A stretch of DNA of 64,000 bases from a gamma proteobacterium HTCC2207. GTDB lineage: Bacteria; Pseudomonadota; Gammaproteobacteria; Pseudomonadales; Porticoccaceae. Each line of letters starts with the position of its first letter. The first letter of the stretch is position 1. The DNA lies in NCBI GenBank assembly GCA_905182855.1, contig CAJJDA010000010.1:1-64000 (forward strand), written 5' to 3'. This document shows positions 8,150 through 28,737 of the stretch, piece after piece. The notes under the pieces are model-generated. The model saw only the letters and a list, made by a program, of their open reading frames with translations. It was not told the DNA's origin and ran no database searches. Position numbers and translations under genes: made by a program.

Positions 8150-8773
8150 GTGATAGTTTCTCATGCCAAACAGTTTATCTTTTTCGCGGTGCCGAAAACT
8201 GGTACCCATGCGGTTCGTGAGCTATTGCGTGTCCATAAGGGCCCAGATGACTGGGAGCAGCAAATTCTGTTCGGTAAACAATGTTTGCCAATACCAGAGA
8301 TAGCGAAAATTCAACATGGACATATCAGTGTCCAGCAAATCTCGCCCCATCTTGAAGCGGCTATTTGGCAAAACTATTTGAAATTTGCGATTGTGAGAAA
8401 TCCCTTCGATCGATTTATCTCAATCTGTTTTTTCTTGAATCGTAAAAACCCCCTGTTTATCGAGACGCCGCTGCAGTGGATGAAATCAGCGATTAAGGTG
8501 CCGCAATTTAGAGAGCGGGTCCTAGTAAAGCCTCAATACCTTCAGTTGATAGATGCTCAAGGCGAAATAGCAATGGACTATGTTGGTCGCTATGAGCATT
8601 TGCAGTTATCAGTTGATGAGATTTGTAATAGGCTCCAGATCAAGGCGGTGCCTTTGGAGATAAGAAACGCCTCAGCGCATAAGCAGTATCGCGAGTACTA
8701 TGATGACGAACTCAAATCTGCAGTTGAAATGGTTTACCGCGAAGACCTTAAGCAATTTAATTACTCCTATTAG
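8150..8773 (+). CDS. Sulfotransferase family 2 protein
   Basis: 207 residues from a GTG codon two bases after the preceding stop, indicating translational coupling. VPKTGTHAVRELL near the N terminus is the PAPS 5'-phosphosulfate loop. AIVRNPFDRFIS is the 3'-phosphate-binding motif of carbohydrate-type sulfotransferases (Sulfotransfer_2). The protein is short and has no membrane anchor, so it should be cytoplasmic. Its acceptor is unknown. Pairing with the TPR-sulfotransferase suggests two sulfation steps, or two acceptors, in one process. Confidence 0.85.
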   Translation: MIVSHAKQFIFFAVPKTGTHAVRELLRVHKGPDDWEQQILFGKQCLPIPEIAKIQHGHISVQQISPHLEAAIWQNYLKFAIVRNPFDRFISICFFLNRKNPLFIETPLQWMKSAIKVPQFRERVLVKPQYLQLIDAQGEIAMDYVGRYEHLQLSVDEICNRLQIKAVPLEIRNASAHKQYREYYDDELKSAVEMVYREDLKQFNYSY

Positions 8774-8869
8774 TATAGGCGTTCATTTGCTCGACATTGA
8801 GTGCGGCATTGATTAAACGTTGCATTATAATCGGGTTTAGGCCAACTTGGTTGCTGCCATGGTGTAGCG

Positions 8870-9748
8870 CTAAGGGTTTCTGTCGAGCTGGTTTGCAGTG
8901 TACCTCAATAGCGCTCTATACTCCGCCCAGCCTGCTTCTTCGTAGCCATAGAGATGCCAGATCTGACGCCAGTCTTTGGCCAGGTTTAGGAGTATTATTT
9001 TGTATCTCGCAGCGATCTCTGGATCATTTTTAGGATTATTTTCAATATCACCAATTAGCTCGTTGGCAATGGCTTCAAGTTCGCCTGGGGCCATAACGGG
9101 CGCTATATTGTAACGCTCCGTCTTAATGCTGCTTTGCAGGCCAGGTTGGTAGGGGTGCGCATTAATCTTAGTCTGGAGCAGCGGGGTATCTCCGTTTATC
9201 CCAAAGGATTCCATCTGGCGCACAGTCTCCCAAAAGCGTGAAGAGCCTGAGGTATCTATTACTAGATGAACACGATCTTGGTCACTATTATTGATGACTT
9301 TATGGCGACGCCAAGAGTCAAATATCCAGCATTCACCGGCACGCATATGAATCGCTTGATCACCACAATGAAAGATGACCTGTGGGTTGGTAATAATCGG
9401 AATATGGATTCTAACCCTGCTATACCAGTGGTAATTAAAATCAACATGCTCGCTTACCTCAGCACCAGCGTTAAGACGCATTAGCCTAGACCTGGCCAGA
9501 ACCTCACCAAAGCTGGCCATCACTTGTTGCATATATTCGCATCTCAGCAATTCTGGCGTGGAGGCCATAGGCCCATTAAAATCATTATTGCGCTGACCGT
9601 TTAGAGAGATCAATGGTATTGCAAGGTTACCAACCAATTTAGAGGGATGTTCCATCCACGCGTCGTCTGAGAGCTCAGCAATTTCTCGTCCTAATTGAAG
9701 AGCATCGAATTGATAGGGTAGTCGCACAAAAGGTTGAGCTAGCTTCAT
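8870..9748 (-). CDS. Aspartyl/asparaginyl beta-hydroxylase family dioxygenase
   Basis: A 2-oxoglutarate/Fe(II) dioxygenase fold is visible: HVDFNYHWYSRVRIHIPI supplies the HxD iron ligands, and RAGECWIFDSWRRHKVIN supplies the distal His. Family members hydroxylate Asp or Asn side chains in peptides or free amino acids. The ATG at 9748 (292 aa) is chosen because family proteins usually start close to the LPYQFD region and because the upstream ATG at 9904 leaves only 38 bases to the divergent gene. The longer form would be 344 aa. The gene is convergent with the sulfotransferase pair and may share its substrate. Confidence 0.82.
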   Translation of the reverse strand: MKLAQPFVRLPYQFDALQLGREIAELSDDAWMEHPSKLVGNLAIPLISLNGQRNNDFNGPMASTPELLRCEYMQQVMASFGEVLARSRLMRLNAGAEVSEHVDFNYHWYSRVRIHIPIITNPQVIFHCGDQAIHMRAGECWIFDSWRRHKVINNSDQDRVHLVIDTSGSSRFWETVRQMESFGINGDTPLLQTKINAHPYQPGLQSSIKTERYNIAPVMAPGELEAIANELIGDIENNPKNDPEIAARYKIILLNLAKDWRQIWHLYGYEEAGWAEYRALLRYTANQLDRNP

Positions 9749-9942
9749 AGAATTTATTGGATTCTCGTTAGCGTTGATTATAGTCAACAGTCCCGGCTTT
9801 TTTGCCGCCGCATTCCAGAGTATAAGCCGCGCCCGTAAATGGTGCAATTTAGATGCTGCTTTTAGAACTTTAATTAACAAAACTGTATAATTTATGAATG
9901 ACATTATATGCCCAAATTGTACCTAAATATAAGAGGTGATGT

Positions 9943-10962
9943 ATGTCTGACATAAAAATGACCGAACGAGAAGTTCAACAGCTAGTGGAGGGTTGCCTGA
10001 TGGCCAATGGCTGTAACCATGAAAACGCTGCGGCTCTGGGTCGCACTATTGCGTCAGCGGAGCGCGATGGTAGTGCGTCGCACGGCCTGTTTAGAATGCC
10101 GGGCTATATTGCCTCGCTGCGTAGCGGAAAGGTTGATGGCAATGCCGAGCCCACAGTGACGCGTATAGCGCCCTCGGTGATTAAAGTTGATGGCCATCGC
10201 GGCTATGCGCCACTGGCGCTCGAAAAAGGGCGCGAAGCGCTGATAGAAGCGGCTCGTGAGAATGGTATTGCGGCGATGGCGTTGGTCAATGTGCATCATT
10301 TTGCGTCGCTCTGGGTTGAGGTAGAGCCCATAGCTGAAGCTGGTCTGGCGGCCATGGCCTTTACCACCTATAAACCCGCTGTAGTGCCCGCTGGCGCTAA
10401 AGAGCCGTTATTTGGCACCAATCCCATGTGCTTTGGCTGGCCCCGTGGCGACAGGCCACCGCTGGTCTTTGATCAGGCCTCAGCCTCTATGGCTCGTGGT
10501 GAAGTGATGATTGCCGCTCGTGACGGTCACGCCGTGCCCGCGGGGACTGGGGTTGATGCAGATGGTAATCCCACCACAGATGCGCAAAAGATTCTTGATG
10601 GTGGGGCACTGCTGCCCTTTGGCGGTCATAAAGGCTCTACCATTGCCATGATGATTGAGTTGTTGGTCGCCGGTCTTACTGGCATGGACTTTAGTTACGA
10701 AGCGCAGAAAAATGATAACAATGATGGTGGCCCACCTAATGGCGGCGAATTTATGCTGGCGATAGACCCGAATAAATTTGGTGATACTGAGGGCTGGTTA
10801 GATCATTCCGAGGCGTTTTTACAGCGACTAGCAGGTATGGAAGGGTCGCATATGCCGGGTAACCGTCGCTATGCCAATCGCGCCAAAAGCACCGTTGAGG
10901 GGATCACTGTCAGCGAAAAGGTACATGCTAGTTGTATTGAATTTATTAATACTGCCAGCTAG
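9943..10962 (+). CDS. LDH2/MDH2-family oxidoreductase, Delta1-piperideine-2-carboxylate / pyrroline-2-carboxylate reductase (DpkA)-like
   Basis: 339 residues, aligning by eye with Pseudomonas DpkA throughout: ASAERDGSASHGLFRMPGY contains the catalytic SHG histidine, with HHFASLWVEVEP, PLFGTNP, ILDGGALLPFGGHKGS and the family end. DpkA reduces cyclic imines of 2-oxo amino acids with NADPH and can also make N-methyl amino acids from 2-oxo acids and methylamine. A good ribosome binding site (AAGAGGTGAT) precedes the ATG. The gene is convergent with the lysR-like gene and sits beside the aldehyde dehydrogenase-M19-BCCT operon, suggesting a reductive step on an imine intermediate there. Confidence 0.8.
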   Translation: MSDIKMTEREVQQLVEGCLMANGCNHENAAALGRTIASAERDGSASHGLFRMPGYIASLRSGKVDGNAEPTVTRIAPSVIKVDGHRGYAPLALEKGREALIEAARENGIAAMALVNVHHFASLWVEVEPIAEAGLAAMAFTTYKPAVVPAGAKEPLFGTNPMCFGWPRGDRPPLVFDQASASMARGEVMIAARDGHAVPAGTGVDADGNPTTDAQKILDGGALLPFGGHKGSTIAMMIELLVAGLTGMDFSYEAQKNDNNDGGPPNGGEFMLAIDPNKFGDTEGWLDHSEAFLQRLAGMEGSHMPGNRRYANRAKSTVEGITVSEKVHASCIEFINTAS

Positions 10963-11851
10963 TTAGAGCATGGTTAATCCGTATTTCTCTGCCTGCTGAG
11001 GTGTCTCTCGTGTAATGGTATCGATCATTGCTTCCGCTGCTGGCGATAGTGTCCAGCCCTTGCGCGTAATTAGGTAGATATTGCGCGATTCAGAGGGTAC
11101 CAGCGATCGTGACACTAAATCATTGGTTGATTTGGGTACGGCTAGGTTCCTCTTACGGATACGCCAAGATTAGATCTCAGCATAGCCACTAATGTGGTGA
11201 TATTGGGAAAATTAAACTTGGACTCGCCGGCGTCATGGCGGGCTCTTAATGTTTTGGTAATACCTGTATCTAAAAAAGTCACATTATCCAGCTGCGTCCA
11301 TGCGATTGCTGCGGTATTTTGAGCCAGCTCATGATCACGATGGCAGATTAATTCTAGCTTATCAGCAAATAGCGGTGTGAACTTGAGCACCTTGTTGGGC
11401 TTCCACATACTGCCTATCCCGAAGTCGACTTCATTGCGCTCCACTCGGTGTTGGACGCCACGGGAACTATCATCATCGAGATGCAGGTTAATGCCGGGAA
11501 ACTCAGCGGCAAATGTTTTAATGATTTCTGGTAACAGGTTGGTTGCTACTGAGGGGACAACGGCCATACTGACATGGCCACTGCGCCGCTCTGAGGTGGC
11601 TCTAAGGTCATGGATAGCTGCGTCGAAATCTCGCACCAGACGCTCGGCAATAGGCAGGAAATTTTCACCCTCAGTGGTGGTGCTGACGCTGCGAGTTGTG
11701 CGTTCGATCAGTTTCAAGCCAATAAACTCTTCGAGCTGTTTAACCGCCAGAGTGATAGCGGGTTGAGTGCGGGACAGCTTTTCTGCGGCACGATTAAAGC
11801 TACCTTCTTTGGCGACCACGATAAAGGTGCGCAGGTGTCGAAGAGTTACAT
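10963..11851 (-). CDS. LysR-family transcriptional regulator (reading frame broken twice)
   Basis: The helix-turn-helix (NRAAEKLSRTQPAITLAVKQ) and the LysR effector domain are clear. The main open frame is only 225 aa (11142-11819) and lacks both ends. At 11145-11148 a lost base makes the stop directly after VSVRGT; restoring it continues as LAVPKSTNDLV and ends KYGLTML at 10963. At about 11848 another lost base separates the ATG at 11851 from TLRHLRTFIVVAKEG. Restored length is 296 residues, normal for LysR. The gene is divergent from the aldehyde dehydrogenase operon, which it probably controls. Confidence 0.8.
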
Positions 11852-11926
11852 TTAAATGTTTGATATAAATACCTTTTGTTGTTTTTAGGGTAATTTTATA
11901 TAATCTGTAGAATAAATTAATTTAGC

Positions 11927-11942
11927 TTATATATCTATATAA
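11927..11942. promoter_or_regulatory. Candidate operator between lysR and the aldehyde dehydrogenase operon
   Basis: A perfect palindrome TTATATA-tc-TATATAA lies in an AT-rich 206-bp divergent promoter region. Its position between a LysR gene and the operon running away from it suits an autoregulatory binding site. AT-rich palindromes also occur by chance, so this is tentative. The downstream gene has a strong ribosome binding site, AGAGGAG, at about 12046. Confidence 0.4.
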
Positions 11943-12057
11943 ATTAGTCATTAGATTTATCGCTGATTAGAACCAAGAATACGCCGCTAAAGGGCGTGAT
12001 TAGATACATTTAGGCCGTTATTGCCGATTTTAAACATCAAAACAAAGAGGAGTAGTC

Positions 12058-13503
12058 ATGAGTCAGGAAATGTTCCAGAACTATATCAATGGTCAGTGGG
12101 TAGCTAGTGCAGCAGTCATCGAGAATATTAACCCGTCAGATACCAGTGATGTAGTGGGGCACTATGCCAAAGCCTCTCCCGAAGACTGTCTTGCCGCTAT
12201 TGCTGCGGCCAATGCGGCATTTGATGGCTGGTCACAAAGTGGTTTAGAGCAGCGCAAGCAGATACTGGATTTTATTGGTGCAGAGCTTATTGCTCGCAGC
12301 GGTGAAATTGGTGAGATTTTGGCGCGAGAGGAAGGTAAAACACGTGCCGAAGGCGTTGGTGAAGTTCACCGCTCGGGTCAGTTCTTTCAATATTACGGTG
12401 CCGAAGCACTGCGTCTGATGGGCGAAAACACCCAGTCCGTGCGTCCTGGGGTGGATGTTGAAGTACACCGCGAGGCCTTGGGCGTCATCGGCATTGTTAC
12501 ACCATGGAATTTCCCTCTGGCGGTGGCGGCATGGAAAGTGGCACCGGCATTGGCCTATGGTAATGCCGTGGTACTGAAGCCTGCCGAGTTGGTGCCAGCC
12601 AGTGCTTGGATACTGGCAGATATTATCAGTCGCAGTGGGTTGCCTGCTGGTGTCTTTAATCTAGTGATGGGTTCGGGCCGTGATGTGGGTGAAACACTCT
12701 GCACCTCCCCCGACATTCAAGCCGTAACCTTTACTGGTTCTGTAGGCGTTGGCCGTCATATTGCCCGCAATGCTATCGACAATATGGCCCGTGTGCAGCT
12801 AGAAATGGGCAGTAAGAACGCCCTCGTGGTGCTCGACGATGCCGATATTGACGTCGCCGTTAACTGTGCCCTTGCCGGCGGTTATTTTGGTACTGGGCAG
12901 AAATGTACCGCCTCCTCCAGAATTATTGTGCAGGCTGGTATCCATGATGCGTTTGTAGAAAAGCTGAGCACAGCAGTGGGCAAACTCGTAGTAGGACATG
13001 CGTTAGGCGAAGGATCCCAGATTGGGCCCGTTGTCGATGCACGTCAGCTTGCTCAGAACTTGGAATATATGCAGATTGCTAAGGATGAGGGCGCCCAGTT
13101 AGTTGTCGGTGGTGAGCGTTTGCAGTTAGACACTGAGGGTTACTTTATGTCGCCGGCACTGTTTATTAATACCACTAATCAGATGCGTATTAACCGCGAA
13201 GAAGTGTTTGGCCCCATCGCCTGTGTCATCAAGGTTGCCAGTTATGAAGAGGCGCTGGAGGTGTCGAATGATTCAGATTTTGGTCTGACATCGGGTATCA
13301 TTACCAGCTCGCTAAAGTATGCTGGGCACTTCAAGCGTCACTCCAAATCAGGTTGTGTGATGGTAAACTTACCAACTGCTGGAACCGACTATCATGTGCC
13401 CTTTGGTGGTCGTAAAAACTCCAGCTATGGTGCACGTGAGCAGGGTCAATACGCCCGCGAGTTTTACACTATTATAAAAACCAACTACAGCAAGCCATAC
13501 TAA
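12058..13503 (+). CDS. NAD(P)-dependent aldehyde dehydrogenase (2-oxoglutarate-semialdehyde dehydrogenase-like)
   Basis: 481 residues, a complete ALDH. IGIVTPWNFPLAV is the cofactor entry motif, VTFTGSVGVG the nucleotide loop, VQLEMGSKN holds the general-base Glu, and FGTGQKCTASSR the catalytic Cys. The pattern around the catalytic Cys (GYFGTGQKCTASSR) resembles 2-oxoglutarate-semialdehyde (2,5-dioxopentanoate) dehydrogenases of sugar-acid and hydroxyproline catabolism more than betaine aldehyde dehydrogenases; this is judged from memory of the family. It is the first gene of a five-gene operon. The product would be a dicarboxylate feeding central metabolism if the substrate inference is right. 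Confidence 0.82.
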   Translation: MSQEMFQNYINGQWVASAAVIENINPSDTSDVVGHYAKASPEDCLAAIAAANAAFDGWSQSGLEQRKQILDFIGAELIARSGEIGEILAREEGKTRAEGVGEVHRSGQFFQYYGAEALRLMGENTQSVRPGVDVEVHREALGVIGIVTPWNFPLAVAAWKVAPALAYGNAVVLKPAELVPASAWILADIISRSGLPAGVFNLVMGSGRDVGETLCTSPDIQAVTFTGSVGVGRHIARNAIDNMARVQLEMGSKNALVVLDDADIDVAVNCALAGGYFGTGQKCTASSRIIVQAGIHDAFVEKLSTAVGKLVVGHALGEGSQIGPVVDARQLAQNLEYMQIAKDEGAQLVVGGERLQLDTEGYFMSPALFINTTNQMRINREEVFGPIACVIKVASYEEALEVSNDSDFGLTSGIITSSLKYAGHFKRHSKSGCVMVNLPTAGTDYHVPFGGRKNSSYGAREQGQYAREFYTIIKTNYSKPY

Positions 13504-13516
13504 CCGGGAGTTTCTG

Positions 13517-14512
13517 ATGAACAAAGATATACTCCTGATTGATGGCTTGCAGTACGTCAATTGGAATCGCGGGCTATTTGAAAATGCTCAGCAGTCTGGG
13601 ATACATGCCATTCATGTCACTATTGCCTATTGGGAAAATAGCCGCGAGACCTTGGAAAATATTGGGCATTGGAACCGTCATTTTCTGGATCATGGCGATC
13701 TCATTATGCCGATACACTCGGCGGCCGATATCTTAGAGGCTAGGCGTCTGGGTAAAGTAGGTATCATTTTTGGGTTCCAAAATTGTTCGCCGATTGAAGA
13801 CGATGTCAAAATGGTACAAATTCTTCACCAGCTGGGTGTGCGTATTATGCAGCTCAGTTACAATAATCAGAGCCTTTTGGCGACCGGTTGCTATGAGGAA
13901 CAGGACGGCGGTATAACCCGATTTGGTAAACAGGTAATTAAAGAGATGAACCGCGTCGGCATGGTTATTGATATGTCTCACAGTGCTGAAAAGTCCACGC
14001 TTGAAGCTATCGAAATTTCTGAGCGGCCCATTGCAATTACCCATGCCAACCCAACATTTTTTCATGGTGCACTGCGCAATAAATCAGATCATGTGCTGCG
14101 CGCGATTGGTGACTCTGAAGGTATGCTCGGTTTTAGTATGTATCCTTTTCACTTGAAAAATGGCTCAGATTGTACGTTGCCAGAATTTTGTCAGATGATT
14201 ATGCAGACAGCAGAGATGATTGGTGTTGACCGTTTAGGTATCGGCTCTGATCTGTGTGAAAATTGGGACTACTCGGTATTAGAGTGGATGCGCAGTGGCC
14301 GTTGGACCATGGGTGTCGATCATGGTGAGGGCACCGCAGAAAAACCGTCTTGGCCGCGTCAGCCAAATTGGTTCACTGGGCCAAAGGATATGCACACGAT
14401 CGCTCAGGGTCTTGAAGACACCGGCTTCAGTGAATCGGATGTGGCTAAAATCATGGGCCAAAATTGGCTTTCATTTTTTGAGAAATCATTTACGAGTAAG
14501 GATCAAATATGA
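13517..14512 (+). CDS. Peptidase M19 (membrane dipeptidase)-like protein with an incomplete metal site
   Basis: 331 residues with the M19 fold. The beta-metal ligands are present (IDMSHS and AITHANP), as is the substrate-binding Asp in GIGSD. The N-terminal HxD pair that normally follows VDGH is absent: the sequence reads LIDGLQYVNWN. The bridging Glu of the IEGG motif is replaced (IIFGFQN), and the substrate His is Tyr in QLSYNN. It is thus unlikely to be an ordinary binuclear zinc dipeptidase. It may hydrolyse or rearrange a small catabolic intermediate. It starts 13 bases after the aldehyde dehydrogenase and overlaps the BCCT gene by an ATGA. Confidence 0.8.
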   Translation: MNKDILLIDGLQYVNWNRGLFENAQQSGIHAIHVTIAYWENSRETLENIGHWNRHFLDHGDLIMPIHSAADILEARRLGKVGIIFGFQNCSPIEDDVKMVQILHQLGVRIMQLSYNNQSLLATGCYEEQDGGITRFGKQVIKEMNRVGMVIDMSHSAEKSTLEAIEISERPIAITHANPTFFHGALRNKSDHVLRAIGDSEGMLGFSMYPFHLKNGSDCTLPEFCQMIMQTAEMIGVDRLGIGSDLCENWDYSVLEWMRSGRWTMGVDHGEGTAEKPSWPRQPNWFTGPKDMHTIAQGLEDTGFSESDVAKIMGQNWLSFFEKSFTSKDQI

Positions 14513-16038
14513 GTGACGAGGTTACAGACAGCGTAACGACAACTATTGACTGGCCGGTGTTTATTTTGAGCGGTGGATTTCTAATGCTGTTTGTCGCCAC
14601 CGCAGTATTTGATATCGAATTTCTTTCCGCCACTGTTAGCCAGGCGTTTGGCGGAGCGACTCAGATGTTTGGTGCCTACTGGCAGGTGCTAATGCTGCTA
14701 ACCTTTGTGATCGCCTTAGGTGTTGCTGCGTCCGGTTCTGGCAGGGCTAGGTTGGGTAACCTCAGCGAACCTGATATTAGTACCTATAAATGGGTGGCAA
14801 TTATTATGTGTACGCTGCTGGCTGGGGGCGGCGTGTTCTGGGCCGCGGCTGAGCCCATGGCCCATTTTATCAACTCGCCGCCATTGTTTGGCGTCGAATC
14901 CTCGAGTCCAGCTGCGGTATATCCCGCTCTGGCGCAGAGTTATATGCACTGGGGCTTTTTGGCTTGGTCAATCCTAGGCAGTCTGACCGCAATTATTTTT
15001 ATGTACCTGCACTATGACAAAGGTCTGCCATTGAAGCCGCGTATATTGCTGTATCCGGTGTTTGGTGAGGTCGTGCTTCACGGATGGCTCGGTGCCCTGA
15101 TAGATGCCGCCTGTGTCGTTGCAGTGATTTCTGGAACGGTAGGGCCGATTGGGTTTTTAGGTTTGCAGGTGAGTTTCGGTCTCTCCGAACTGTTCGGTAT
15201 CAGCGATAGCTATAGTACACAGTTAGCGATTATTGTCGGGCTCATTGTGATTTACACTATTTCAGCGGTGTCCGGCGTTACCCGAGGTATTCAGATACTC
15301 AGCTCATTTAATATTGTGTTGGCTATCGGCCTAATGGTCTTTATCTTAATCGCTGGGCCAACCGCCTTTATTTTTGACAGTTTTATTCAATCAACTGGCC
15401 TGCTATTGACTGAGTTTATCCCCATGGCTACCTACCGGGCTGATGTCGGCTGGTTGAATGGCTGGACGGTATTTTTCTGGGGCTGGTTCATTGGCTATGG
15501 CCCGTTGATGGCAATGTTTATTGCGCGTATATCCCGCGGTCGAACGATTCGTCAGTTGATTATCACATTGTCACTCACTGCGCCCCTGGTAACGTACTTC
15601 TGGTTCACTATCGTTGGTGGTACCGGGATTGCCTTTGAACTGGCTGATGTTGGGGTGATCTCCGGGCCCTATGCCGAGTCTGGAATGCCAGCGGCTCTAT
15701 TGGCCATTACCCAGCAATTACCCTGGGGATTTCTGATCTCAGTACTATTTTTGGTGCTCACAACTATCTTCGTTGCGACCACGGGAGACTCCATGACTTA
15801 CACCGTTTCCATGGTGATGACAGGCACCGATAACCCGCCAACCGCGCTTCGTGTTTTCTGGGGCATTATGATGGGTGTGCTGGCGGCAATACTGATCTCA
15901 ATCGGCTCTGGTGGCGTATCCGCGCTGCAATCTTTTATTGTCGTAACAGCCGTTCCAGTGTCGCTTATATTAATGCCATCACTGTGGAATGCTCCTAAAA
16001 TGGCGCGACAGATGGCTGTCGAGCAGGGCCTCATTTAA
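14509..16038 (+). CDS. BCCT-family betaine/choline/carnitine-type transporter
   Basis: 509 residues with about 12 membrane spans. The signature WTVFFWGWFIGYGPLMAMF followed by IARISRGRTIRQ is the BCCT family hallmark, and FWAAAEPMAHF is a further conserved site. Members import quaternary ammonium or sulfonium osmolytes with Na+ or H+. The short N-terminal tail and lack of a long C-terminal extension suggest a catabolic carrier rather than an osmosensing one. The start overlaps the M19 stop, so the transporter is translationally coupled to catabolic genes, pointing to a betaine-like substrate for the operon. Confidence 0.92.
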   Translation: MSDEVTDSVTTTIDWPVFILSGGFLMLFVATAVFDIEFLSATVSQAFGGATQMFGAYWQVLMLLTFVIALGVAASGSGRARLGNLSEPDISTYKWVAIIMCTLLAGGGVFWAAAEPMAHFINSPPLFGVESSSPAAVYPALAQSYMHWGFLAWSILGSLTAIIFMYLHYDKGLPLKPRILLYPVFGEVVLHGWLGALIDAACVVAVISGTVGPIGFLGLQVSFGLSELFGISDSYSTQLAIIVGLIVIYTISAVSGVTRGIQILSSFNIVLAIGLMVFILIAGPTAFIFDSFIQSTGLLLTEFIPMATYRADVGWLNGWTVFFWGWFIGYGPLMAMFIARISRGRTIRQLIITLSLTAPLVTYFWFTIVGGTGIAFELADVGVISGPYAESGMPAALLAITQQLPWGFLISVLFLVLTTIFVATTGDSMTYTVSMVMTGTDNPPTALRVFWGIMMGVLAAILISIGSGGVSALQSFIVVTAVPVSLILMPSLWNAPKMARQMAVEQGLI

Positions 16039-16086
16039 CTAGGATGGGATGTACTGTGCAGCACTAATTCGCAGTCGACCAGCTTA

Positions 16087-17815
16087 ATGCAAGCGGATGG
16101 CAAACCACGCGTATTGCCGTTGCGTCCTGCCAGTCAGGTTATGCGGTTGGAGCGCTTGGGTAGCTTTCATCAGTCGCGACTGAGTTTTATGCGTACGCTC
16201 GTGCGACGAATGGTGATTGAAAACTGGCAGATTACCAGTCCAGTATTTGATCTAGATGATCAAGGTTACGGCACCGTGGTCTACCAGGTTGAGGCCAGAT
16301 TTGGCATCTTTAGCTACGTACTATTTTCGCATTATCTGGATCCGGATAGTCGCAATGATAGGGTGATCGCCAATCAGTGGGATCTAACTATGGCACTGTG
16401 CGAAGGTACAGTTGATGCCGATCAGTTAGCATTCTTGCGCACGAATGTGCCGAAGCAGGAAGCAGGCCGTGTTGACTCGCGGGTGCTGGTGCTATCTCGC
16501 GCCAATCGTAGTGGGCGCACATTTGAATATGTCGTCGATGAGTTGGCCGAGGGTCGTCAGCCCTGTATCGACGTGATCGCCGAAGTGGGCTATCTCTATC
16601 GTACCACTGCAGCTTACGGTAGTGGTAAGTTGGGTATGGCGGATTGGGAAAAAGTCTGGACCAAGCATCGAGATTTTGCCCGACCCTTTGCGGCGGAGAT
16701 GTTTACCTGTTTTATGCTTACGTCACTTTAGTATGCAGCAGGCTGACTATTTAGCGGCACAGCGCGCGCCGGAACCAAGGCGGTAATTTTGGATGAAGAT
16801 ATCAAGCGTTATATAGGTATTGGTAATTCTACTGGTCTGGGTATGGCACCTTTTTTAATCAACCATCCTATGTTAATTAACCAGTGGATTGAAATGCGTG
16901 AAACCGCATTGGCGAGAGTTATTCTCGCCAGCGAGTCTGGTGTTGATGAGTCTATATTTGTCCGCTTGGCGGCTTCAGTGCAGCGGGTAATCCAGCATCT
17001 GGGTGAGATTGTCACTGCTGACGAACGACAGAGTAGTTCTAATATTTTAGTGCGGCAAGATTTGGTGCTTTTGCACCAATGGCTCCAAGATGAGACTGCA
17101 GCGTTGGTGCGAGAAAATTATGACTGGGCTAATCTGGTTGAGTATGCGGAACGGTCCTTTCACTTAGAAACGCAGGAAGTGATTAATACATTATTAATTG
17201 AGCTCTATCCCGAGTTAGTTGATGACCTCGAGGAGCATATGGGTGTGGACGAATCTATTCGCGTAATGCCTGAGATGTCTGTCGCTCAGCTGTTGCAGAT
17301 TATCGAAGATAAGTATGATTGGGCGTTGGCTATAGATTTCAGTCAGTACGAATCAATGGGAGCATTTTGGTACCGATCCCAAGAAAAGATGGAGCCTCGT
17401 CTTGGGCCAGACCAACATTGATATGGGTATGGAAAAAGAGATGCCAATGGCCGTTGGCCGTCGTGTGCGAGAATGTTATGACCAAGTTAGTGCTTACAAT
17501 CTGACCTGTCCGCAACAGAATGTCGCCCACTTTATTATGAGAAATCCAAACTATAGTGGCATCGTCGGTCGCGTTCAAACTATGGCGCAGAGATGTTACG
17601 GAGATATACGTGAAAATTTGGTCCACTCCGACGTGCTGCCGATTCATTTGTTGCGCTGTAAGCTATCTTTTTTTGGGGTGAGTAAATTTGACCCTCGCTC
17701 ACGCCTATGGGTACGTAATACCATGTTCCAGGGTGCGCCTCTGATCAGTGATTTTGGTAAACCCTTTGCTGATGAGTGGCAGTTTCCTATCAAACCTGTT
17801 CTGACGTCCGGCTAA
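16087..17815 (+). CDS. Uncharacterised protein of about 575 aa (reading frame broken three times)
   Basis: I do not recognise a domain. Three collinear open stretches form one protein: 16087-16719, then 16721-16775, then 16777-17401, then 17402-17815. An extra base near 16720 (true reading MLRHFSMQQADYL), a missing base near 16776 (PE-x-KAVILDEDIKRY) and an extra base near 17402 (MEPRLGQTNIDMGM) restore a 575-residue chain. Conserved-looking stretches include PLRPASQVMRLERLG, GYGTVVYQVEA and RYIGIGNSTGLGMAPFL. No signal peptide or membrane span is apparent. It lies between the BCCT gene and a DUF3726 gene five bases downstream, so it is probably an enzyme of the same pathway. Confidence 0.6.
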
Positions 17816-17820
17816 GTCGC

Positions 17821-18552
17821 ATGAAAGTGTCCAAAAATGAATTGATGGCTTCACTTAAGAAGGCATTTGAGGGCTTGGGTTTCCATCCAGGCGACTATTA
17901 TGATGCCGCCGATATGGTGGTCTGGTTAGAGACTCATGGTCTCGATGGTTTTGATCGATTGCAGGCAGCTCTGGCCTATCTGAATACGACCGGACCGACC
18001 CATGCTGAACTTATTGAAGAGGATACGAGCTATTCAGTTTTGGATGGTAATGATAGCTCTATTTTACTCTGCGGTAGCGAGGCGATTGACCTGCTGAGTG
18101 CTCAGATAATGGAAGGTTCCGCGGCTGGATTACAGCTTAATAACTGCTATAACCGAACTTTTATTTTACAGCGATTAGTCAAGGCTGCACAACGCGATTT
18201 GGCTTTTATAGCCTACTGGCGGCAGGATGCTTGTTGCATCAAGGTCTCTATTGCGGCGGGTGCCGACCTTCCAGAGCATCAGACGTTTAGTCTGGCCGAG
18301 GTTATTGATCCGCAGTCGCTGACCGTTTTTGCCGGTACAGACTTAGTCGTTGTGGAGCAGCAATTTTCTGAGCAGATAGCAATCGGGGAGTTGATTGAGA
18401 CCTATTCATCGGCAGAAATGAGTATCTGCTATCAGGATTCGGTAGAGCAGGGCATCGAGATAGACGAGGTCCTTTGGTCAACTCTTGAGGGACTCGTTGA
18501 AAGAATATTAGTTGAGTCCACAGAGAGCTCCAGAGCGGGCGCCGGAGACTAG
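17821..18552 (+). CDS. DUF3726 domain-containing protein
   Basis: 243 residues from the ATG at 17821, five bases after the preceding stop. The N terminus (KVSKNELMASLKKAFEGLG, then YDAADMVVWLETHGLDG) fits DUF3726, a family of unknown function. The middle holds a paired-cysteine stretch QDACCIKVS. It is the last gene of the operon and ends 23 bases before the convergent LysR gene. Tight linkage to the 575-aa protein suggests the two act together, perhaps as enzyme and partner subunit. No catalytic motif is apparent. Confidence 0.65.
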   Translation: MKVSKNELMASLKKAFEGLGFHPGDYYDAADMVVWLETHGLDGFDRLQAALAYLNTTGPTHAELIEEDTSYSVLDGNDSSILLCGSEAIDLLSAQIMEGSAAGLQLNNCYNRTFILQRLVKAAQRDLAFIAYWRQDACCIKVSIAAGADLPEHQTFSLAEVIDPQSLTVFAGTDLVVVEQQFSEQIAIGELIETYSSAEMSICYQDSVEQGIEIDEVLWSTLEGLVERILVESTESSRAGAGD

Positions 18553-18575: not shown

Positions 18576-19484
18576 CTACTCTGGCATTTCCAGCTCAGCC
18601 TGGTTGATCAGCCAGTATCGAAAGGCCTCGACATGAGGATGGACATGCTGATTAACCGGCGTCGCTAAAAAGAAAGCCTCAGACGTTGCTAAGCGCTCAT
18701 TAAATGGCGCGATTAAACGTCCACTAGCTAACATTCCAGCTACCAGAGATGTTCTGCCTAATGCGATACCATGGCCCAGCGCGGCCATCTCCATAGCAGT
18801 AACGAGCGAGTCAAAGCTTATCCCCTGAGACGAATCAACCGCATGATAGCCAAATTGACTCAACCAGAAACCCCAACCCTCTTCGTAGCCAATCACATGC
18901 AATAGAGTGTGATCAGACAGCTCTTTAGGTTTTTTGGGTGGCTGTTCGGGAGATAGATCACCACCGACCAAGTCAGGACTGCAGACTGGGAAAAGTTCAT
19001 CCCAGGTCAGACGATTACTAGTGAATCCAGGCCATAGGCCTTTGCCATAACGGATTTCAATGTCGGCATCCTTGTCGGGATCGCCCACCCAAATATTACT
19101 GGTGAAACGCAGGCCAATGTCGGGGTGCTGTTCGCGAAAGTTTGCTAAACGCGGCGCCAGCCATGAGGTAAAAAATGCTAGATTGACGCGCACCGTGAGG
19201 GTGCGGCTACGCTCTTTACCAAATATTTCATCGGTTACGACGCCCAGCTTTTCAATAGCCTGACGGACACCTGGCGCATAGGCTCGGCCAGAATCAGTTA
19301 ACGCTAACCCTCTGGGTAGACGCTTGAATAGGGTACAGCCAAGTTGGGCCTCGAGGCCCTTGATCTGCTGACTGATAGCAGCTTGAGTCATATGCAGCTC
19401 AGCCGCAGCCTGGGTAAAATTAAGATGTCGGGCGGAGGCTTCAAACGAGCGCAGCCAGTTTAATGGAGGCAGTCTTTTTTTCAT
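18576..19484 (-). CDS. LysR-family regulator, GcvA-like
   Basis: 302 residues. The opening PPLNWLRSFEASARHLNFTQ and helix-turn-helix QAAISQQIKGLEAQLG place it in the GcvA-like group, followed by the substrate-binding domain with VRVNLAFFTSWLAPRL. It is read leftward 33 bases after iclR, at the end of the dddT-dddB-dddC-iclR unit. In Marinomonas a LysR protein (DddR) controls ddd genes; this one could have that role or control the convergent DUF3726 operon. The effector is unknown. Confidence 0.85.
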   Translation of the reverse strand: MKKRLPPLNWLRSFEASARHLNFTQAAAELHMTQAAISQQIKGLEAQLGCTLFKRLPRGLALTDSGRAYAPGVRQAIEKLGVVTDEIFGKERSRTLTVRVNLAFFTSWLAPRLANFREQHPDIGLRFTSNIWVGDPDKDADIEIRYGKGLWPGFTSNRLTWDELFPVCSPDLVGGDLSPEQPPKKPKELSDHTLLHVIGYEEGWGFWLSQFGYHAVDSSQGISFDSLVTAMEMAALGHGIALGRTSLVAGMLASGRLIAPFNERLATSEAFFLATPVNQHVHPHVEAFRYWLINQAELEMPE

Positions 19485-19517
19485 AATTAACGTCTCATTC
19501 TTTCTTTGACGTGCCCG

Positions 19518-20312
19518 TTAGGGCTGATCGTCGTCAGGATCATCGATTAGGCGGCCGAGTTCGTCGGCGGCTTGGCGCAGGATTGGCAGATAGCCAAGAA
19601 GCTCATCCAGACTCTTTCTAATCACTGGAGCATGAGTGAATAGACAGGCTAATAGCTTGCCACTGCTGTCCAATACAGGCACCGCACAGGCAACCATACC
19701 CTCGCAGAACTCTTCGTTGTCAGTGCCGACCTCGGTTTTCTTAATGCGTTGAAGTTCGGCTTCTAACGTCTTTGCGTCGGTGATGGTATTACGTGTGTAT
19801 CGCTCCATTGGTAGCAGATTAATAATTTTTAGACGACGTTGTTTTGGCAGAGAGCTAAGATACAGTTTGCCGCTGGCTGTGCACCAACTCGGGGTATGGC
19901 TGCCGACCTGTAAATTTATCTGCAAAGGCCAATCCGTCTGCACACGATCGTAATAAATCATCTCAGTGCCATTGGGAATGGCGATACCGCAGGTCTCGCC
20001 GGTGCGCTGAGTAAGCTGCGTGAGGATAGCCTGACGCACCGCTTTGAATCTGCTGTTATGCAGTAGCCCAAGTGCTACGCCATGCATGCGATTGCCGGGC
20101 AGTATTAGGCCACGCATCGAGGTAAGCAGATAGCCATCCGTCTCAAGTTGATTGATCAATCGGTGCACGCTGGGTTTAGGAATATCCAGCTGAAAAGAAA
20201 GATCGGCAGGCGATAAGGGACGCTCAGCCTTAGCAACAGCCTCTATGATCTCCATTACTCTGGAAATAGAGGAGCCTTTCTCTCTCGTGCTCACTGTGGT
20301 TCCGTCTGTCAT
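19518..20312 (-). CDS. IclR-family transcriptional regulator
   Basis: 264 residues: an N-terminal winged helix (LSPADLSFQLDIPKPSVHRLINQLE) and the C-terminal IclR effector domain (PSWCTASGKLYLSSLP, DNEEFCEGMVACAVPV). It starts 16 bases after the stop of the methylmalonate-semialdehyde dehydrogenase gene, so it is part of the dddTBC transcript. Such regulators often respond to an intermediate of the pathway they lie in, here perhaps 3-hydroxypropionate, malonate semialdehyde or acrylate. This is an inference from position. Confidence 0.88.
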   Translation of the reverse strand: MTDGTTVSTREKGSSISRVMEIIEAVAKAERPLSPADLSFQLDIPKPSVHRLINQLETDGYLLTSMRGLILPGNRMHGVALGLLHNSRFKAVRQAILTQLTQRTGETCGIAIPNGTEMIYYDRVQTDWPLQINLQVGSHTPSWCTASGKLYLSSLPKQRRLKIINLLPMERYTRNTITDAKTLEAELQRIKKTEVGTDNEEFCEGMVACAVPVLDSSGKLLACLFTHAPVIRKSLDELLGYLPILRQAADELGRLIDDPDDDQP

Positions 20313-20328
20313 ATGTTGACTCTGGAGT

Positions 20329-21825
20329 CTATTTCATCGTCGGCATGGAGAACATCGCACCTTCACGGATACCGGCAGATGGCCAGCGCTGGGTAATAGT
20401 TTTACGTTTGGTGTAAAAACGCACAGCATCTGGGCCATAGGCATGTAAGTCGCCAAACAACGAACGCTTCCAACCACCGAAGCTGTGGTACGCAACCGGT
20501 ACCGGTAATGGCACATTGATACCGACCATACCGACCAAAATCTGATCAGAAAAATAGCGTGCAGCTTCGCCGTCGCGGGTAAAGATGCAGGTGCCATTGC
20601 CGTATTCATGGTCGTTAATAATATCCATAGCTTCTTGCATGGTATCGACGCGCATGACTTGTAGTACTGGGCCGAAAATTTCTGCCTGGTAGCTGTCCAT
20701 CTCGACGGTGACATTATCAATAAGTGTGCCACCAACAAAAAAGCCATTCTCATAGCCTTGAATCTGCGGGTTGCGCCCATCGACCACAATGGTGGCACCC
20801 TGTTTTTCTGCACTGTCTATATAGCCAAAGACTTTTTGTTGATGTTGCCGAGTAATCACAGGGCCAAAGTCATTGCTGGCATTGGTGCAGGCGCCTACTT
20901 TTAACCCCTTCATGGCCTCTTGCATCTTGCTGACTAATGAGTCGGCTGCTGCGTCGCCTACGGCAACCACAACGGACAGTGCCATACAGCGTTCACCTGA
21001 AGAGCCAAATGCGGCGCCGAGTAACTGGGCAACGGTGTTATCCATGTCGGCATCTGGCATGACAATGGCGTGGTTCTTGGCGCCACCCAGTGCCTGACAG
21101 CGTTTGCCATTGGCATTTGCCGTGGTATAGATAGTCTCCGCAATTGGCGTGGAGCCTACAAAGCTAACCGCTTTAACATCCTTATGATGAAGTAGGGCAT
21201 CAACGGCTTCTTTATCGCCATTGACTACGTTCATGACACCATCGGGCAGACCGGCCTCTTTTAATAGGGAGGCAATAAATAGGGTTGAGCTAGGGTCGCG
21301 TTCTGATGGCTTGAGGATAAAGCAGTTACCGCAGACAATGGCCATTGGATACATCCATAGGGGTACCATTGCCGGGAAGTTAAATGGGGTAATGCCAGCT
21401 ACCACACCCAGAGGTTGAAATTCACTCCAGCTATCAATATTTGCCGCCACATTTTTACTGTGCTCACCTTTTAATAGTTCTGGTGCGCAGCAGGCATATT
21501 CAACATTTTCGATTCCGCGCTGTAATTCACCGGCCGCATCGTGACTGATCTTGCCATGCTCGTCGCCAATCAATGCACAGATTTTGTCGGCATTGCTCTC
21601 TAATAATTCTTTAAATTTAAACATGACTCGCGCCCGTTTAATGGCGGGGGTGTCACGCCACTCAGGAAAGGCGGCCTGAGCCGCATCAATCGCCAGCGCC
21701 ACTGTCGTCTGAGATGCCAGTGCTACCTGTTTGCTGACTTCGCCAGTGGCTGGGTTGTAAACGTCCTGAGTGCGATCATCGCTAGCGACCATCTGGCCGT
21801 TAATTAAATGTCCTACTAGTGTCAT
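20329..21825 (-). CDS. dddC: CoA-acylating malonate/methylmalonate-semialdehyde dehydrogenase (DddC-like)
   Basis: 498 residues from the ATG at 21825, which has a GAGG site upstream; the open frame extends to 21888 without support. ITPFNFPAMVPLWM, VSFVGSTPIA and SSGERCMALSVVV identify the MmsA family. Its Cys and neighbouring Arg mark the CoA-dependent decarboxylating enzymes. In ddd loci this enzyme turns malonate semialdehyde to acetyl-CoA and CO2. It is preceded by the Fe-alcohol dehydrogenase and followed by iclR on the same strand. The same enzyme serves valine breakdown, but the context here favours 3-hydroxypropionate oxidation. Confidence 0.88.
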   Translation of the reverse strand: MTLVGHLINGQMVASDDRTQDVYNPATGEVSKQVALASQTTVALAIDAAQAAFPEWRDTPAIKRARVMFKFKELLESNADKICALIGDEHGKISHDAAGELQRGIENVEYACCAPELLKGEHSKNVAANIDSWSEFQPLGVVAGITPFNFPAMVPLWMYPMAIVCGNCFILKPSERDPSSTLFIASLLKEAGLPDGVMNVVNGDKEAVDALLHHKDVKAVSFVGSTPIAETIYTTANANGKRCQALGGAKNHAIVMPDADMDNTVAQLLGAAFGSSGERCMALSVVVAVGDAAADSLVSKMQEAMKGLKVGACTNASNDFGPVITRQHQQKVFGYIDSAEKQGATIVVDGRNPQIQGYENGFFVGGTLIDNVTVEMDSYQAEIFGPVLQVMRVDTMQEAMDIINDHEYGNGTCIFTRDGEAARYFSDQILVGMVGINVPLPVPVAYHSFGGWKRSLFGDLHAYGPDAVRFYTKRKTITQRWPSAGIREGAMFSMPTMK

Positions 21826-21853
21826 TATTATGTCCTCAAAAATATCAGTCGGT

Positions 21854-23011
21854 TTACCAGAGCTTTTTGTAGATCTCAATGATCTCATCTGCGCTGGGCA
21901 CCCTTGGATTGTTCGCCGGGGATCCAGATGCCAATGCCTGCTCAGCCATCACCTCGAGATTATTAAAAAAGTGTGCCCGTTCGATACCAAATTGCTCTGG
22001 TGTCGGCACCTGTAGTTCTTTATTGATGGCGTATAACTCCGCCATCAGTTTTTCATTGGCTAGCTCGGTACTATCAGTTTGGTTGGCCACGCCCATGGCT
22101 CGCGCGCAGTCAGCGTAGCGCTCGGCAGCTGCAGGAATGCTGTACTCGGTAACCATAGGCAGTAACATGGCATTAGAGAGGCCGTGGGGTACATGATAAA
22201 AAGCGCCGATAGGCCGCGACATACCATGGACTAGCGCGACAGAGGCATTGGAAAATGCGATACCTGCCAAGGTCGATCCCAGCATCATTGCTTCACGAGC
22301 CTGCTGATCGCTGCCGTTGTGAAATACCTTGCGTAGGTTGGGCCCGAGCAGTTTCATAGCGGCAATGGCTTGGCTGTCACTGTAAAGGCTGGCCTTCTTG
22401 CTGACATAGGCTTCCATCGCATGAGTTAGGGCGTCGATACCTGTATCTGCGGTGGTTCGTGCCGGTAGACTTAGGGTCAGGCTATAGTCCACCAGTGCAG
22501 CCGTGGGCATAAAGCCAATGCCGACACAGAGCATTTTCTCATCATTAGTTTCGTCAGTAATAATGGTAACGCGGGTACATTCCGAGCCAGTTCCCGCCGT
22601 GGTGGGGATAGCAATAATGGGTAGACCAGGTTCACTGACTATGCGGGGGAATTTATAGTCGCGCATCACGCCACCATACTTACCCAAGATGGCAATAGCT
22701 TTAGCGCTATCGATGGGGCTGCCTCCGCCCACCGCGATAATGCTATCGTAGTTGCCATTGCGCGCCTGCTCCACGCCCGCCTGAATCGAGCGCTCTGTGG
22801 GTTCTGGAACAGTGTCATGGAATACATCAGAGTCGATGCCAGCGGCTGTTAAGCTTTCTTGCACTGCACCCACATAACCAAGTTGCACCATCATCTTGTC
22901 GGTAACAATTAATGGGCGCTGACATTCTAAGGCGATCAAAATAGTCCCCACTGCTTTACTGGCACCCTCGCCCACTTGCAAAATACGCGGGAGAATTATC
23001 TGTGTAGACAT
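21854..23011 (-). CDS. dddB: Iron-containing alcohol dehydrogenase (DddB-like, 3-hydroxypropionate dehydrogenase)
   Basis: 385 residues from the ATG at 23011, four bases after the BCCT stop. Group III alcohol dehydrogenase features are clear: AVGGGSPIDSAKAIA for the dinucleotide, TAGTGSECTR, and the histidine-rich iron site ALVHGMSRPIGAFYHVPHG. In DMSP-degrading bacteria DddB oxidises 3-hydroxypropionate to malonate semialdehyde. The position between a BCCT carrier and DddC, next to dddD, supports that role. The reaction is inferred from context since the family is broad. Confidence 0.87.
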   Translation of the reverse strand: MSTQIILPRILQVGEGASKAVGTILIALECQRPLIVTDKMMVQLGYVGAVQESLTAAGIDSDVFHDTVPEPTERSIQAGVEQARNGNYDSIIAVGGGSPIDSAKAIAILGKYGGVMRDYKFPRIVSEPGLPIIAIPTTAGTGSECTRVTIITDETNDEKMLCVGIGFMPTAALVDYSLTLSLPARTTADTGIDALTHAMEAYVSKKASLYSDSQAIAAMKLLGPNLRKVFHNGSDQQAREAMMLGSTLAGIAFSNASVALVHGMSRPIGAFYHVPHGLSNAMLLPMVTEYSIPAAAERYADCARAMGVANQTDSTELANEKLMAELYAINKELQVPTPEQFGIERAHFFNNLEVMAEQALASGSPANNPRVPSADEIIEIYKKLW

Positions 23012-23015
23012 AGTA

Positions 23016-24551: not shown

Positions 24552-24671
24552 CAGTAATTTCCCCTGTGATTTTTTAGTTATTAATTTATCTTAAAATGAT
24601 ACGATTCATATTGTTATACATAAAAAAGATTGATGCAACCCCTAAAAAAGTACTCTGTCACAGAGGCCGAG

Positions 24672-24719
24672 TAATGGTGCCATTAAAAAAATGATGACGA
24701 TCTATAAATCCATTAATGG
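24672..24719. promoter_or_regulatory. Paired inverted repeats in the dddT-dddD divergent promoter
   Basis: Two palindromes share the half-site TAATGG: TAATGG-tg-CCATTA at 24672-24685 and CCATTAATGG at 24710-24719, about 35 bases apart. They lie midway between the divergent starts of dddT (24551) and dddD (24851). That arrangement suits one regulator dimer or tetramer controlling both units; IclR or LysR are candidates. No binding consensus is known to me for this exact sequence. Confidence 0.45.
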
Positions 24720-24850
24720 CGGGGCCTGTAGCCCATATTAGGCATAAAAAAACACTGGCCTTAGGGGTGTTATTTATTGCTAGTCGGGGGTGACTTTGGT
24801 TCTTATTATCGCGTTTTCTCACTATTGATATTTAAAGCGGTCATTAAGGT

Positions 24851-27725: not shown

Positions 27726-28703
27726 TTATATCAACGGCATTTTATTGATCGAGTAGGCCTGCTTATCGAGCCAGGGCGCTATCGCGCTCAGCTGAGGAAT
27801 AATTTTTTCACTATAAATAGAGCGACAATGTGCTGATATTTTCTGTGGTATGTCGCCTAATTCATTATCACGACAGAGCATCGTCAAATGCCTTGCATGG
27901 ACCCCATTAGCCAGAGGCATCACTCGGGTACCTGCGAGTAATTCAGGGTAACGCACCATGCACAGCCCGGTGGTGATGGCCCAGCCCTGACCGGACTGCA
28001 CAAAGCGCAGCAATGTCTGTGTACTATCCAATTCATAGGCGGTGTTCAAACTAAGCTCCATACGACGCGCAATTAGGTCAGTTAGTCTGCCCAACCCTGA
28101 ACCTCTGGTATATCTTACGAACGGAACATTGTCGGCTAACCAAGTAGCTGACACGGTACCGTCTTGCGCATAGCTTTCTGGCACGATCATAACAAAGGGG
28201 TCGCGCAAAATAGGGAAGCGCTGTAGTTCAGGATGCTCATCAATTGAGTCGCTAGTAATCAATATATCTAAATCACGATTTAATAAATCTTGTGACAGCG
28301 AGGAACCGAGCCCGGTGCGCAAAGTTAATCTAGAGGTAAAGGGTTTTACCTGCTGCATAAACTGCAGACCAGCCACATCACAAAATGAGTCGATCATGCC
28401 GACATTCAGGGGCAGTAAGCCGCCCTTGGAAACCATGCGTACTTCGGCAAGCATGCGTTGGGTATCATTGATAATTTGCTGGGCATAGTTTTTCAGTACC
28501 TGACCGCTTGGAGTCAGTTTAATCGGGCGCGATCGGGTAATGACTAACTGGGTTTCAGTTTGTTGCTCGATTTGCTTGAGGGCTTGCGAGACTGCCGACT
28601 GAGTAATGCCTATACGCTCAGCAGCTTGGGTCAGGGTATCAGCTTCGGTTATCGCGAAAAATATCTTTAGCGCACTGATTTCTATAGTCTTATTGTTTTT
28701 CAT
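27726..28703 (-). CDS. LysR-family regulator linked to sox genes
   Basis: 325 residues: an N-terminal winged helix (TQAAERIGITQSAVSQALKQIE) and LysR effector domain (LNVGMIDSFCDVAGLQF). It lies 34 bases after soxG and is read in the same direction, so it is probably the tail of the purU-soxBDAG transcript. The likely job is control of N-methyl amino acid oxidation. The effector is not known. Confidence 0.87.
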   Translation of the reverse strand: MKNNKTIEISALKIFFAITEADTLTQAAERIGITQSAVSQALKQIEQQTETQLVITRSRPIKLTPSGQVLKNYAQQIINDTQRMLAEVRMVSKGGLLPLNVGMIDSFCDVAGLQFMQQVKPFTSRLTLRTGLGSSLSQDLLNRDLDILITSDSIDEHPELQRFPILRDPFVMIVPESYAQDGTVSATWLADNVPFVRYTRGSGLGRLTDLIARRMELSLNTAYELDSTQTLLRFVQSGQGWAITTGLCMVRYPELLAGTRVMPLANGVHARHLTMLCRDNELGDIPQKISAHCRSIYSEKIIPQLSAIAPWLDKQAYSINKMPLI

Positions 28704-28737
28704 AGGACAAAGTATAGAGCAAAGTACGGCTTATAGG

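Follow-up and report, generated by a model that had tools for sequence, protein, structure and literature searches.

What compound is broken down by the operon at the start of contig CAJJDA010000010.1 of the gamma proteobacterium HTCC2207 (assembly GCA_905182855.1)? The window, meaning the whole stretch of DNA that was analyzed, comprises the first 64,000 nucleotides of this contig. Its host genome is of the SAR92 type, and its closest loci are Porticoccaceae/SAR92 records. A first-pass annotation had described an aldehyde dehydrogenase (ALDH), an M19 homologue, a BCCT transporter, a 575-aa protein (here named U), and a DUF3726 protein (V), next to a divergent LysR regulator and a DpkA-like imine reductase (Ldh), as an undescribed catabolic operon for homarine, another N-methylated heterocycle, or a proline-type betaine. 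We consider it probable that these genes are the form taken in SAR92 by the bacterial operon for catabolism of homarine (N-methylpicolinate), most likely the one of Ferrer-Gonzalez et al. 2026. We infer the substrate from gene linkage and from that paper as cited by others, and we infer all of the chemical steps.

The gene set was conserved well beyond this genome. It consists of a divergent LysR gene, ALDH, an M19 protein lacking its metal site, often a BCCT gene, U, V, and either Ldh or a RidA protein. With V as the query, 26 GTDB loci were matched, 23 of which were SAR92. Gene order was kept in these 23 as far as the DNA reaches, the BCCT gene apart, which was present in 10, absent in 12, and not scorable in 1 (L010, which starts after the BCCT place). 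Ldh was found in 15 of the 23, and the DNA of the other 8 ends before the place of Ldh. Outside SAR92, the set occurred in metagenome-assembled genomes (MAGs) of Ectothiorhodospiraceae/Spiribacter (L024-L026), in Pseudomonas, Vibrio, Caballeronia, roseobacters, and rhizobia, and in a Roseateles-named record flagged UNVERIFIED_ORG; it spans alpha-, beta-, and gammaproteobacterial records. Of 50 loci with U outside SAR92, 31 had ALDH and M19 as neighbors of U. In a phylum-wide sample of 398 genomes, 29 had U (the window's own counted), as did 177 of 394 genomes sampled from a family that includes roseobacters (that of G115), and 168 plasmid records if diverged copies of 27-31% identity are counted. 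DUF3726 had no matches in 14 control genomes. The claim of a catabolic operon was upheld by this recurrence, which goes across lineages far beyond chance. The first-pass annotation had also proposed a search for co-occurrence, and U, V, and the M19 variant were kept together with ALDH in many genera, with BCCT variable. The operon is real and very widespread.

The neighborhood of the set in other bacteria points to a substrate. A tetramer of the sarcosine-oxidase type (SoxBDAG) and a regulator of the AraC/GlxA type are neighbors of the set in TM1040 (Ruegeria), Phaeobacter, and Roseateles. A tetramer in genome G226 adjoins an AraC gene and genes for glutamine synthetase, glutamate synthase, GXGXG, and GATase, which is the make-up of gmaS-mgs. 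In a tree of alpha subunits (36 rows with identical rows dropped, and with a warning of long branches that meet), those of TM1040, Phaeobacter, and G226 fell into one clade of 10 with support of 100/100. Because they share this clade with the gmaS-mgs-linked G226 copy, the tetramers beside the set in TM1040 and Phaeobacter are most likely N-methylglutamate dehydrogenase (Mgd). In a sentence of PMC13390433 citing Ferrer-Gonzalez 2026, Mgd is stated to participate in homarine catabolism; going by its title and that citing sentence, the latter paper (Nat Microbiol 11:1531) concerns a conserved homarine pathway that involves Mgd and is wide in environmental bacteria. Homarine is abundant in algae, according to a passage of PMC8269262, and is drawn down rapidly by Ruegeria pomeroyi, according to one of PMC12817926. 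With the Mgd linkage and the cited 2026 paper, the earlier guess of homarine is probably right, and the word "undescribed" is probably out of date.

Several observations weigh against the homarine assignment. The name homABCDER is reportedly that of a homarine operon, and it did not occur in the papers searched. A gene of the SoxA/Mgd type lay within the 20-25 kb examined in only 4 of the 50 loci (including P. porticola, L109). The Roseateles tetramer fell outside the roseobacter Mgd clade, of which no member was found in the three SAR92 genomes searched either (best copies 45-46% and 36-38% identical). In TM1040, Phaeobacter, and G226, the tetramer has the AraC gene at its gamma end, whereas tmaR (AraC type) of R. 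pomeroyi adjoins mgdABCD upstream in the part of PMC13390433 that describes it. Finally, an older growth test mentioned in PMC8269262 had R. pomeroyi growing more poorly on homarine than on trigonelline.

Both types of SAR92 tetramer fell outside the Mgd clade in the tree. One (45-46%) is on another contig, and the other (36-38%) is inside the window at 28738-33870. The latter belongs to a stretch at 27726-33870 that comprises a LysR gene and this diverged sarcosine-oxidase-type tetramer, which is also on the same contig in the relative H921 and occupies a long, separate tree branch. Its alpha subunit scored 892 bits, under the TIGR01372 cut-off of 1164. Either tetramer could be the last-step (demethylation) enzyme, and the one in the window is a candidate N-methyl amino acid demethylase of SAR92.

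Other neighborhoods bear on a different reading, namely that the substrate is another N-methylated heterocyclic betaine (trigonelline, or proline or pipecolate betaine), or several of them, and that the Mgd neighbor reflects general use of N-methyl amino acids. Annotations next to the set of Pseudomonas MPC6 include another BCCT and two enzymes of the mandelate-racemase family, as well as an FAD/2Fe-2S oxidoreductase set; we take these neighbors to resemble genes for hydroxyproline-betaine catabolism. A Rieske oxygenase and a flavoprotein like dimethylglycine dehydrogenase (DMGDH) are near the set in Phaeobacter, and a diverged set of U and M19 has other partners in Sinorhizobium, Aminobacter, and Neorhizobium. 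However, Rieske-type genes were near U in only 3 of the 50 loci and DMGDH-like flavoproteins in 7, the Mgd clade link favors an N-methylglutamate exit, and trigonelline has a different route by way of the TgnA/TgnB oxygenase, as given in part of PMC8269262. We regard this different reading as unlikely. The proline-type betaines of the earlier proposal had no specific support except these neighbors on the one Pseudomonas plasmid. That set (L028) sits on the conjugative plasmid pMPC6-328K of an Antarctic Pseudomonas.

Returning to homarine, the gene set suggests a pathway. LysR would sense the substrate or an intermediate, and the betaine would be imported by BCCT where present and by a ProU-type ATP-binding cassette (ABC) transporter in other lineages. 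U, V, and M19 would break the N-methylpyridinium ring open, with loss of one of its carbons; homarine has 7 carbons and N-methylglutamate has 6, so that one carbon must leave. In the simplest version, a cut between C5 and C6 would leave C6 as an N-formyl group, which M19 would remove. The five-carbon product would be the N-methylimine of 2,5-dioxopentanoate, which fits because ALDH is nearest to 2,5-dioxovalerate dehydrogenases. ALDH would then yield N-methyl-2-iminoglutarate, a compound that fits since the reductase is DpkA-like. Ldh would reduce it to N-methylglutamate, from which Mgd would release glutamate by demethylation. In lineages whose locus has RidA and not Ldh, the imine would be hydrolyzed to 2-oxoglutarate and methylamine. 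The pathway had been expected to end near 2-oxoglutarate or glutamate; in TM1040 and Phaeobacter, the indicated exit is N-methylglutamate and not 2-oxoglutarate directly.

The two endings are suggested by the alternation of Ldh and RidA. Where ALDH and M19 stood beside U outside SAR92 (31 loci), Ldh alone was found in 11, RidA alone in 12, neither in 8, and both in 0 (identity thresholds of 50% for ALDH, 45% for M19, 34% for Ldh, and 55% for RidA; Fisher p = 0.0014 for the exclusion, uncorrected for kinship). This count, to which some genomes contributed two loci, excluded the other 19 of the 50, where ALDH and M19 were not near U. RidA was not found in the SAR92 loci or in the window. Sox/Mgd alpha subunits at E <= 1e-60 were absent from 7 of 8 RidA-type genomes, the other (G046) having two, and an Ldh match was absent from 6 of the 8, with a weak one in G066 and two in G046. 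Genome G098 (Vibrio type), whose locus ends at a contig end, was excluded from the RidA type; it had no Sox/Mgd alpha and no Ldh match. All four of the Ldh-type genomes searched (G115, G135, G313, and G055) had a Sox/Mgd alpha. A simple reading of these patterns is that the common product would be an N-methyl imine, which one group would reduce and then demethylate and the other would hydrolyze. Three points argue to the contrary: neither gene was found in 8 of the 31 loci at these thresholds; all five "neither" genomes searched (G099, G183, G083, G319, and G226) also had Sox/Mgd alphas; and the split follows lineage, so that it may be inherited rather than functional. Three "neither" loci (L110, L115, and L117) had a weaker RidA-like frame of 37-48% identity on the opposite strand.

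Family assignments were obtained for the proteins of the operon other than U. The best NCBIfam matches of ALDH were models for 2,5-dioxovalerate and alpha-ketoglutaric semialdehyde dehydrogenase, at 493.6 bits (cut-off 750) and 484.8 bits (cut-off 770); the protein scored below both equivalog cut-offs, though these are its two best families. Its PDB matches were broad, to betaine-aldehyde and semialdehyde dehydrogenases only. The first of the two NCBIfam models, 2,5-dioxovalerate dehydrogenase, is in line with the 2-oxoglutarate-semialdehyde-like dehydrogenase that had been proposed.

The M19 protein scored 250.8 bits against PF01244 (cut-off 26). The HxD pair and the bridging Glu were absent from all 19 U-associated M19 rows aligned, with Gln in place of Glu, and the earlier description of a metal-site-deficient M19 was thus confirmed by alignment. 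Two of four other M19 rows kept the metal ligands (L173 and L174, from operon-bearing genomes), and the remaining two were of a different Vibrio subfamily. True dipeptidase activity of the M19 protein was considered and dropped. Its best PDB match was 2i5g, an M19 "amidohydrolase" (E 1.4e-66), which has likewise lost HxD and has Gln for Glu. We know of no activity for 2i5g, and its genomic setting is presumably among Pseudomonas glycine betaine genes, unlike the operon.

The BCCT protein scored 505.6 bits against a Pfam cut-off of 27. The aromatic box read W-F..Y in 6 of 6 operon BCCTs aligned and W-W..W in the neighboring BCCT of the window; at the positions that correspond to those of BetP, the operon BCCTs do not have the canonical Trp box for betaine. 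In Roseateles, Pararhizobium, and Aminobacter, the set is closely followed by ProU-type betaine ABC transporters. The BCCT here and these transporters elsewhere support the quaternary, betaine-like substrate that had been suggested. The closest solved relative of Ldh was DpkA, a Delta1-piperideine-2-carboxylate reductase (PDB 1wtj), with E 1.9e-90 for the SAR92 protein, as expected of an imine reductase, and E 4.8e-53 for that of TM1040; the two Ldh proteins are just 36% identical. Unlike DpkA, Ldh is predicted to use an open-chain substrate, N-methyl-2-iminoglutarate.

U and V are the unfamiliar pair of the operon. Nothing in Pfam, NCBIfam, or PDB matched U convincingly; profile searches with 23 U proteins gave weak and scattered hits, the best being E 0.15 in PDB and E 0.047 in NCBIfam. 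One of the 23 matched Pfam PFam54_60 (E 0.00076), which we took as chance. An AlphaFold model of U from a 15-row alignment had a predicted local distance difference test (pLDDT) score of 54.7, too poor for a fold search. In Mesorhizobium, U and V are fused in one annotated coding sequence of 2445 bases, and because of this fusion the two probably work together. The model of V (from the H921 relative) had a pLDDT of 90.5 and an Ldh_2-like fold. Foldseek against PDB gave a best E of 7.1e-11 with query TM-scores of 0.49-0.69, and all 27 matches with E <= 0.001 were malate, lactate, ureidoglycolate, sulfolactate, or DpkA-type enzymes. The V sequence reached 19.6 bits against Pfam Ldh_2 (cut-off 38.8), and hhalign of V with the operon Ldh was not significant (probability 1.6%), though the folds match. 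DUF3726 was not mentioned in the papers searched.

Ring opening is assigned to U, V, and M19 by elimination. A broader and more tentative proposal, to which we give somewhat less than an even chance, is that U and V are a new kind of enzyme, a protein of unknown fold with an Ldh_2-derived partner, which together with the metal-site-less M19 would open N-methylpyridinium rings without a recognizable oxygenase. The pathway would have a reductive ending (Ldh, N-methylglutamate, and Mgd) and a hydrolytic one (RidA, 2-oxoglutarate, and methylamine). Other N-heterocyclic betaines would be the substrates of the diverged U sets, which include M19 and a partner of V's size in rhizobia and a partner resembling Ldh_2 in a haloarchaeon. 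None of the V-position proteins of three diverged rhizobial sets matched DUF3726, one having a weak Ldh_2 match (E 0.11), and this makes the new-enzyme proposal slightly less likely.

Diverged or partial sets were seen in several places. Those of Sinorhizobium, Aminobacter, and Neorhizobium (L069, L070, and L072) comprise an IclR gene, U', a 240-aa protein, M19, and an ABC transporter, together with an aminotransferase, a succinate-semialdehyde dehydrogenase, and an acetolactate-synthase-like gene and/or RidA. A haloarchaeal (Natrinema) plasmid, L071, carries ALDH, U, an Ldh_2-like 317-aa protein (E 4.8e-9 against Ldh_2, just under the cut-off), and BCCT, which suggests transfer to archaea. 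Loci L124 and L125 (also L118, L120-L122, and L127) have M19, U, and V but no such ALDH nearby; the sets of L124 and L125 adjoin MttB-like and DMGDH-like genes.

The features of the operon are listed in Table 1. The coordinates and families given in the first-pass annotation (Ldh_2, divergent LysR, ALDH, M19, BCCT, and DUF3726) were borne out by the open reading frames (ORFs) and Pfam. Its tight packing was confirmed, with 13 bases between ALDH and M19, an overlap of 4 bases between M19 and BCCT, a gap of 48 bases between BCCT and the first ATG of U, and 5 bases between the U stop at 17815 and the likely V start at 17821 (the mechanical ORF of V beginning at 17776).

Table 1. Genes of the operon and its flank in the window
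Feature	Position	Strand	Remarks	Pfam E-value
Ldh (Ldh_2 family, DpkA-like imine reductase)	9943-10962	+	Beside divergent LysR; proposed N-methyl-2-iminoglutarate reductase	5.5e-100 (Ldh_2)
LysR regulator	10966-11876	-	Divergent from operon; ORF 11142-11819; frame change splits gene near 11150	
ALDH	12058-13503	+	Nearest 2,5-dioxovalerate dehydrogenase families, scores below cut-offs; motifs LEMGSK, GQKCTASSR	
M19 amidohydrolase-like protein	13517-14512	+	Without HxD, Gln replaces bridging Glu; proposed N-deformylase or ring-opening hydrolase	2.4e-74
BCCT transporter	14509-16038	+	Altered aromatic box	1.6e-151
U ("575-aa" protein)	16087-17815	+	Pieces 16087-16731, 16789-17421, 17402-17815; no homologues of known family recognized	
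V (DUF3726, 243 aa)	17821-18552	+	DUF3726 protein	5.4e-13 (DUF3726)

The single 575-aa protein of the first-pass annotation does not exist as a continuous open frame in the window. Compared with relatives, U is in three pieces with in-frame stops and one frame change. Of the open frames of the relative G423 (400 kb compared; U identical to that of H921), 39 could be placed on the window with identity and cover both >60%, and 9 were flagged as interrupted. Three of these were set aside: one is antisense (21131-21667), and in two (29454 and 55570) the sole stop precedes the called start. The six genes truly interrupted were LysR, U, a CoA-transferase gene (24.8-27.5 kb), a pair of genes at 35.2-37.4 kb, and another gene at 61.5-62.8 kb. 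The genes at 35212-37404 and 61518-62809 are split into two to four frames relative to G423. Counting the window's own genome, 27 of the 39 genomes available for the genus had U; 25 of the other 26 had no internal stop (two being contig-end fragments), and one fragment had one. One intact relative of U lies at 8364-10034 of locus L005.

These interruptions could mean that the operon is decaying and non-functional in this particular genome. LysR and U are both broken, which also counts against a working homarine operon here, and the genome is 1.64 Mb (14 contigs, 76% complete). The six interrupted genes are nevertheless spread across the contig, and ALDH, M19, BCCT, and V are open, with 67-94% identity to the four relatives compared. 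Because the interruptions are contig-wide, these four genes are open, and the relatives are intact, assembly error in this MAG is the simpler reading, and decay appears quite improbable.

The DNA that follows the operon raises a last alternative, that the substrate is an open-chain quaternary or sulfonium compound (carnitine-like, or like dimethylsulfoniopropionate, DMSP) and that the operon is part of a neighboring ddd-like cluster. The SAR92 set directly adjoins a DMSP-type gene order (LysR, IclR, ALDH, iron-containing alcohol dehydrogenase, BCCT, and CoA-transferase III pieces) that is mostly kept in SAR92 loci. On the other side, no ddd-like cluster was present at the eight annotated non-SAR92 loci searched for one (L028 and L062-L068), a separate LysR belongs to the operon, and having an imine reductase or RidA implies that the oxidized carbon bears nitrogen. 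We regard an open-chain substrate as highly unlikely; use of DMSP or carnitine by the operon was considered and dropped. The neighboring cluster itself, at 18576-27460, has a GcvA-like LysR, IclR, an MmsA-type ALDH, the iron-containing alcohol dehydrogenase, and BCCT on the other strand and two CoA_transf_3 pieces on the plus strand, an order that we take to be like dddR/C/B/T/D for DMSP. Its CoA-transferase gene has several stops at 25952-26084 relative to relatives.

According to a passage of PMC8269262, homarine accounted for as much as 3% of particulate carbon in a survey of the North Pacific, and a published correction to that paper, as far as its notice goes, indicates that homarine concentrations were overstated. 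Genes that remove homarine would be a marker for its turnover. With the operon most likely that of the recently published homarine pathway, what draws interest is less the discovery of an operon than the U/V pair and the fork between Ldh and RidA. If it is true that U and V open the ring, nearly half of the genomes sampled from one large marine family would carry an enzyme type that has no known relatives. The fork would predict whether a bacterium releases methylamine back into seawater or retains the nitrogen in glutamate.

Known systems resemble the operon in part. The trigonelline (Tgn) pathway of Acinetobacter includes a later aldehyde oxidation. It also starts from an N-methylpyridinium carboxylate, with a ring-opening oxygenase, TgnA/TgnB, in the portion of PMC8269262 that treats it; unlike Tgn, the operon had no flavin-monooxygenase family match among its proteins scanned. 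The N-methylglutamate pathway of R. pomeroyi (gmaS, mgsABC, mgdABCD, and tmaR) is linked to the operon through the TM1040 and Phaeobacter tetramers, which share a clade with a gmaS-mgs-linked copy. That pathway starts from methylamine, whereas the operon would derive N-methylglutamate from a ring. The published homarine pathway of Ferrer-Gonzalez et al. 2026, compared here through its citation, is like the operon in its wide spread and, as regards TM1040 and Phaeobacter, in its Mgd link. As a name for five genes and one regulator, homABCDER would fit ALDH, M19, U, V, Ldh, and LysR. Differences are that the SAR92 genomes searched lack the roseobacter Mgd clade and that Vibrio-type loci carry RidA and not Ldh.

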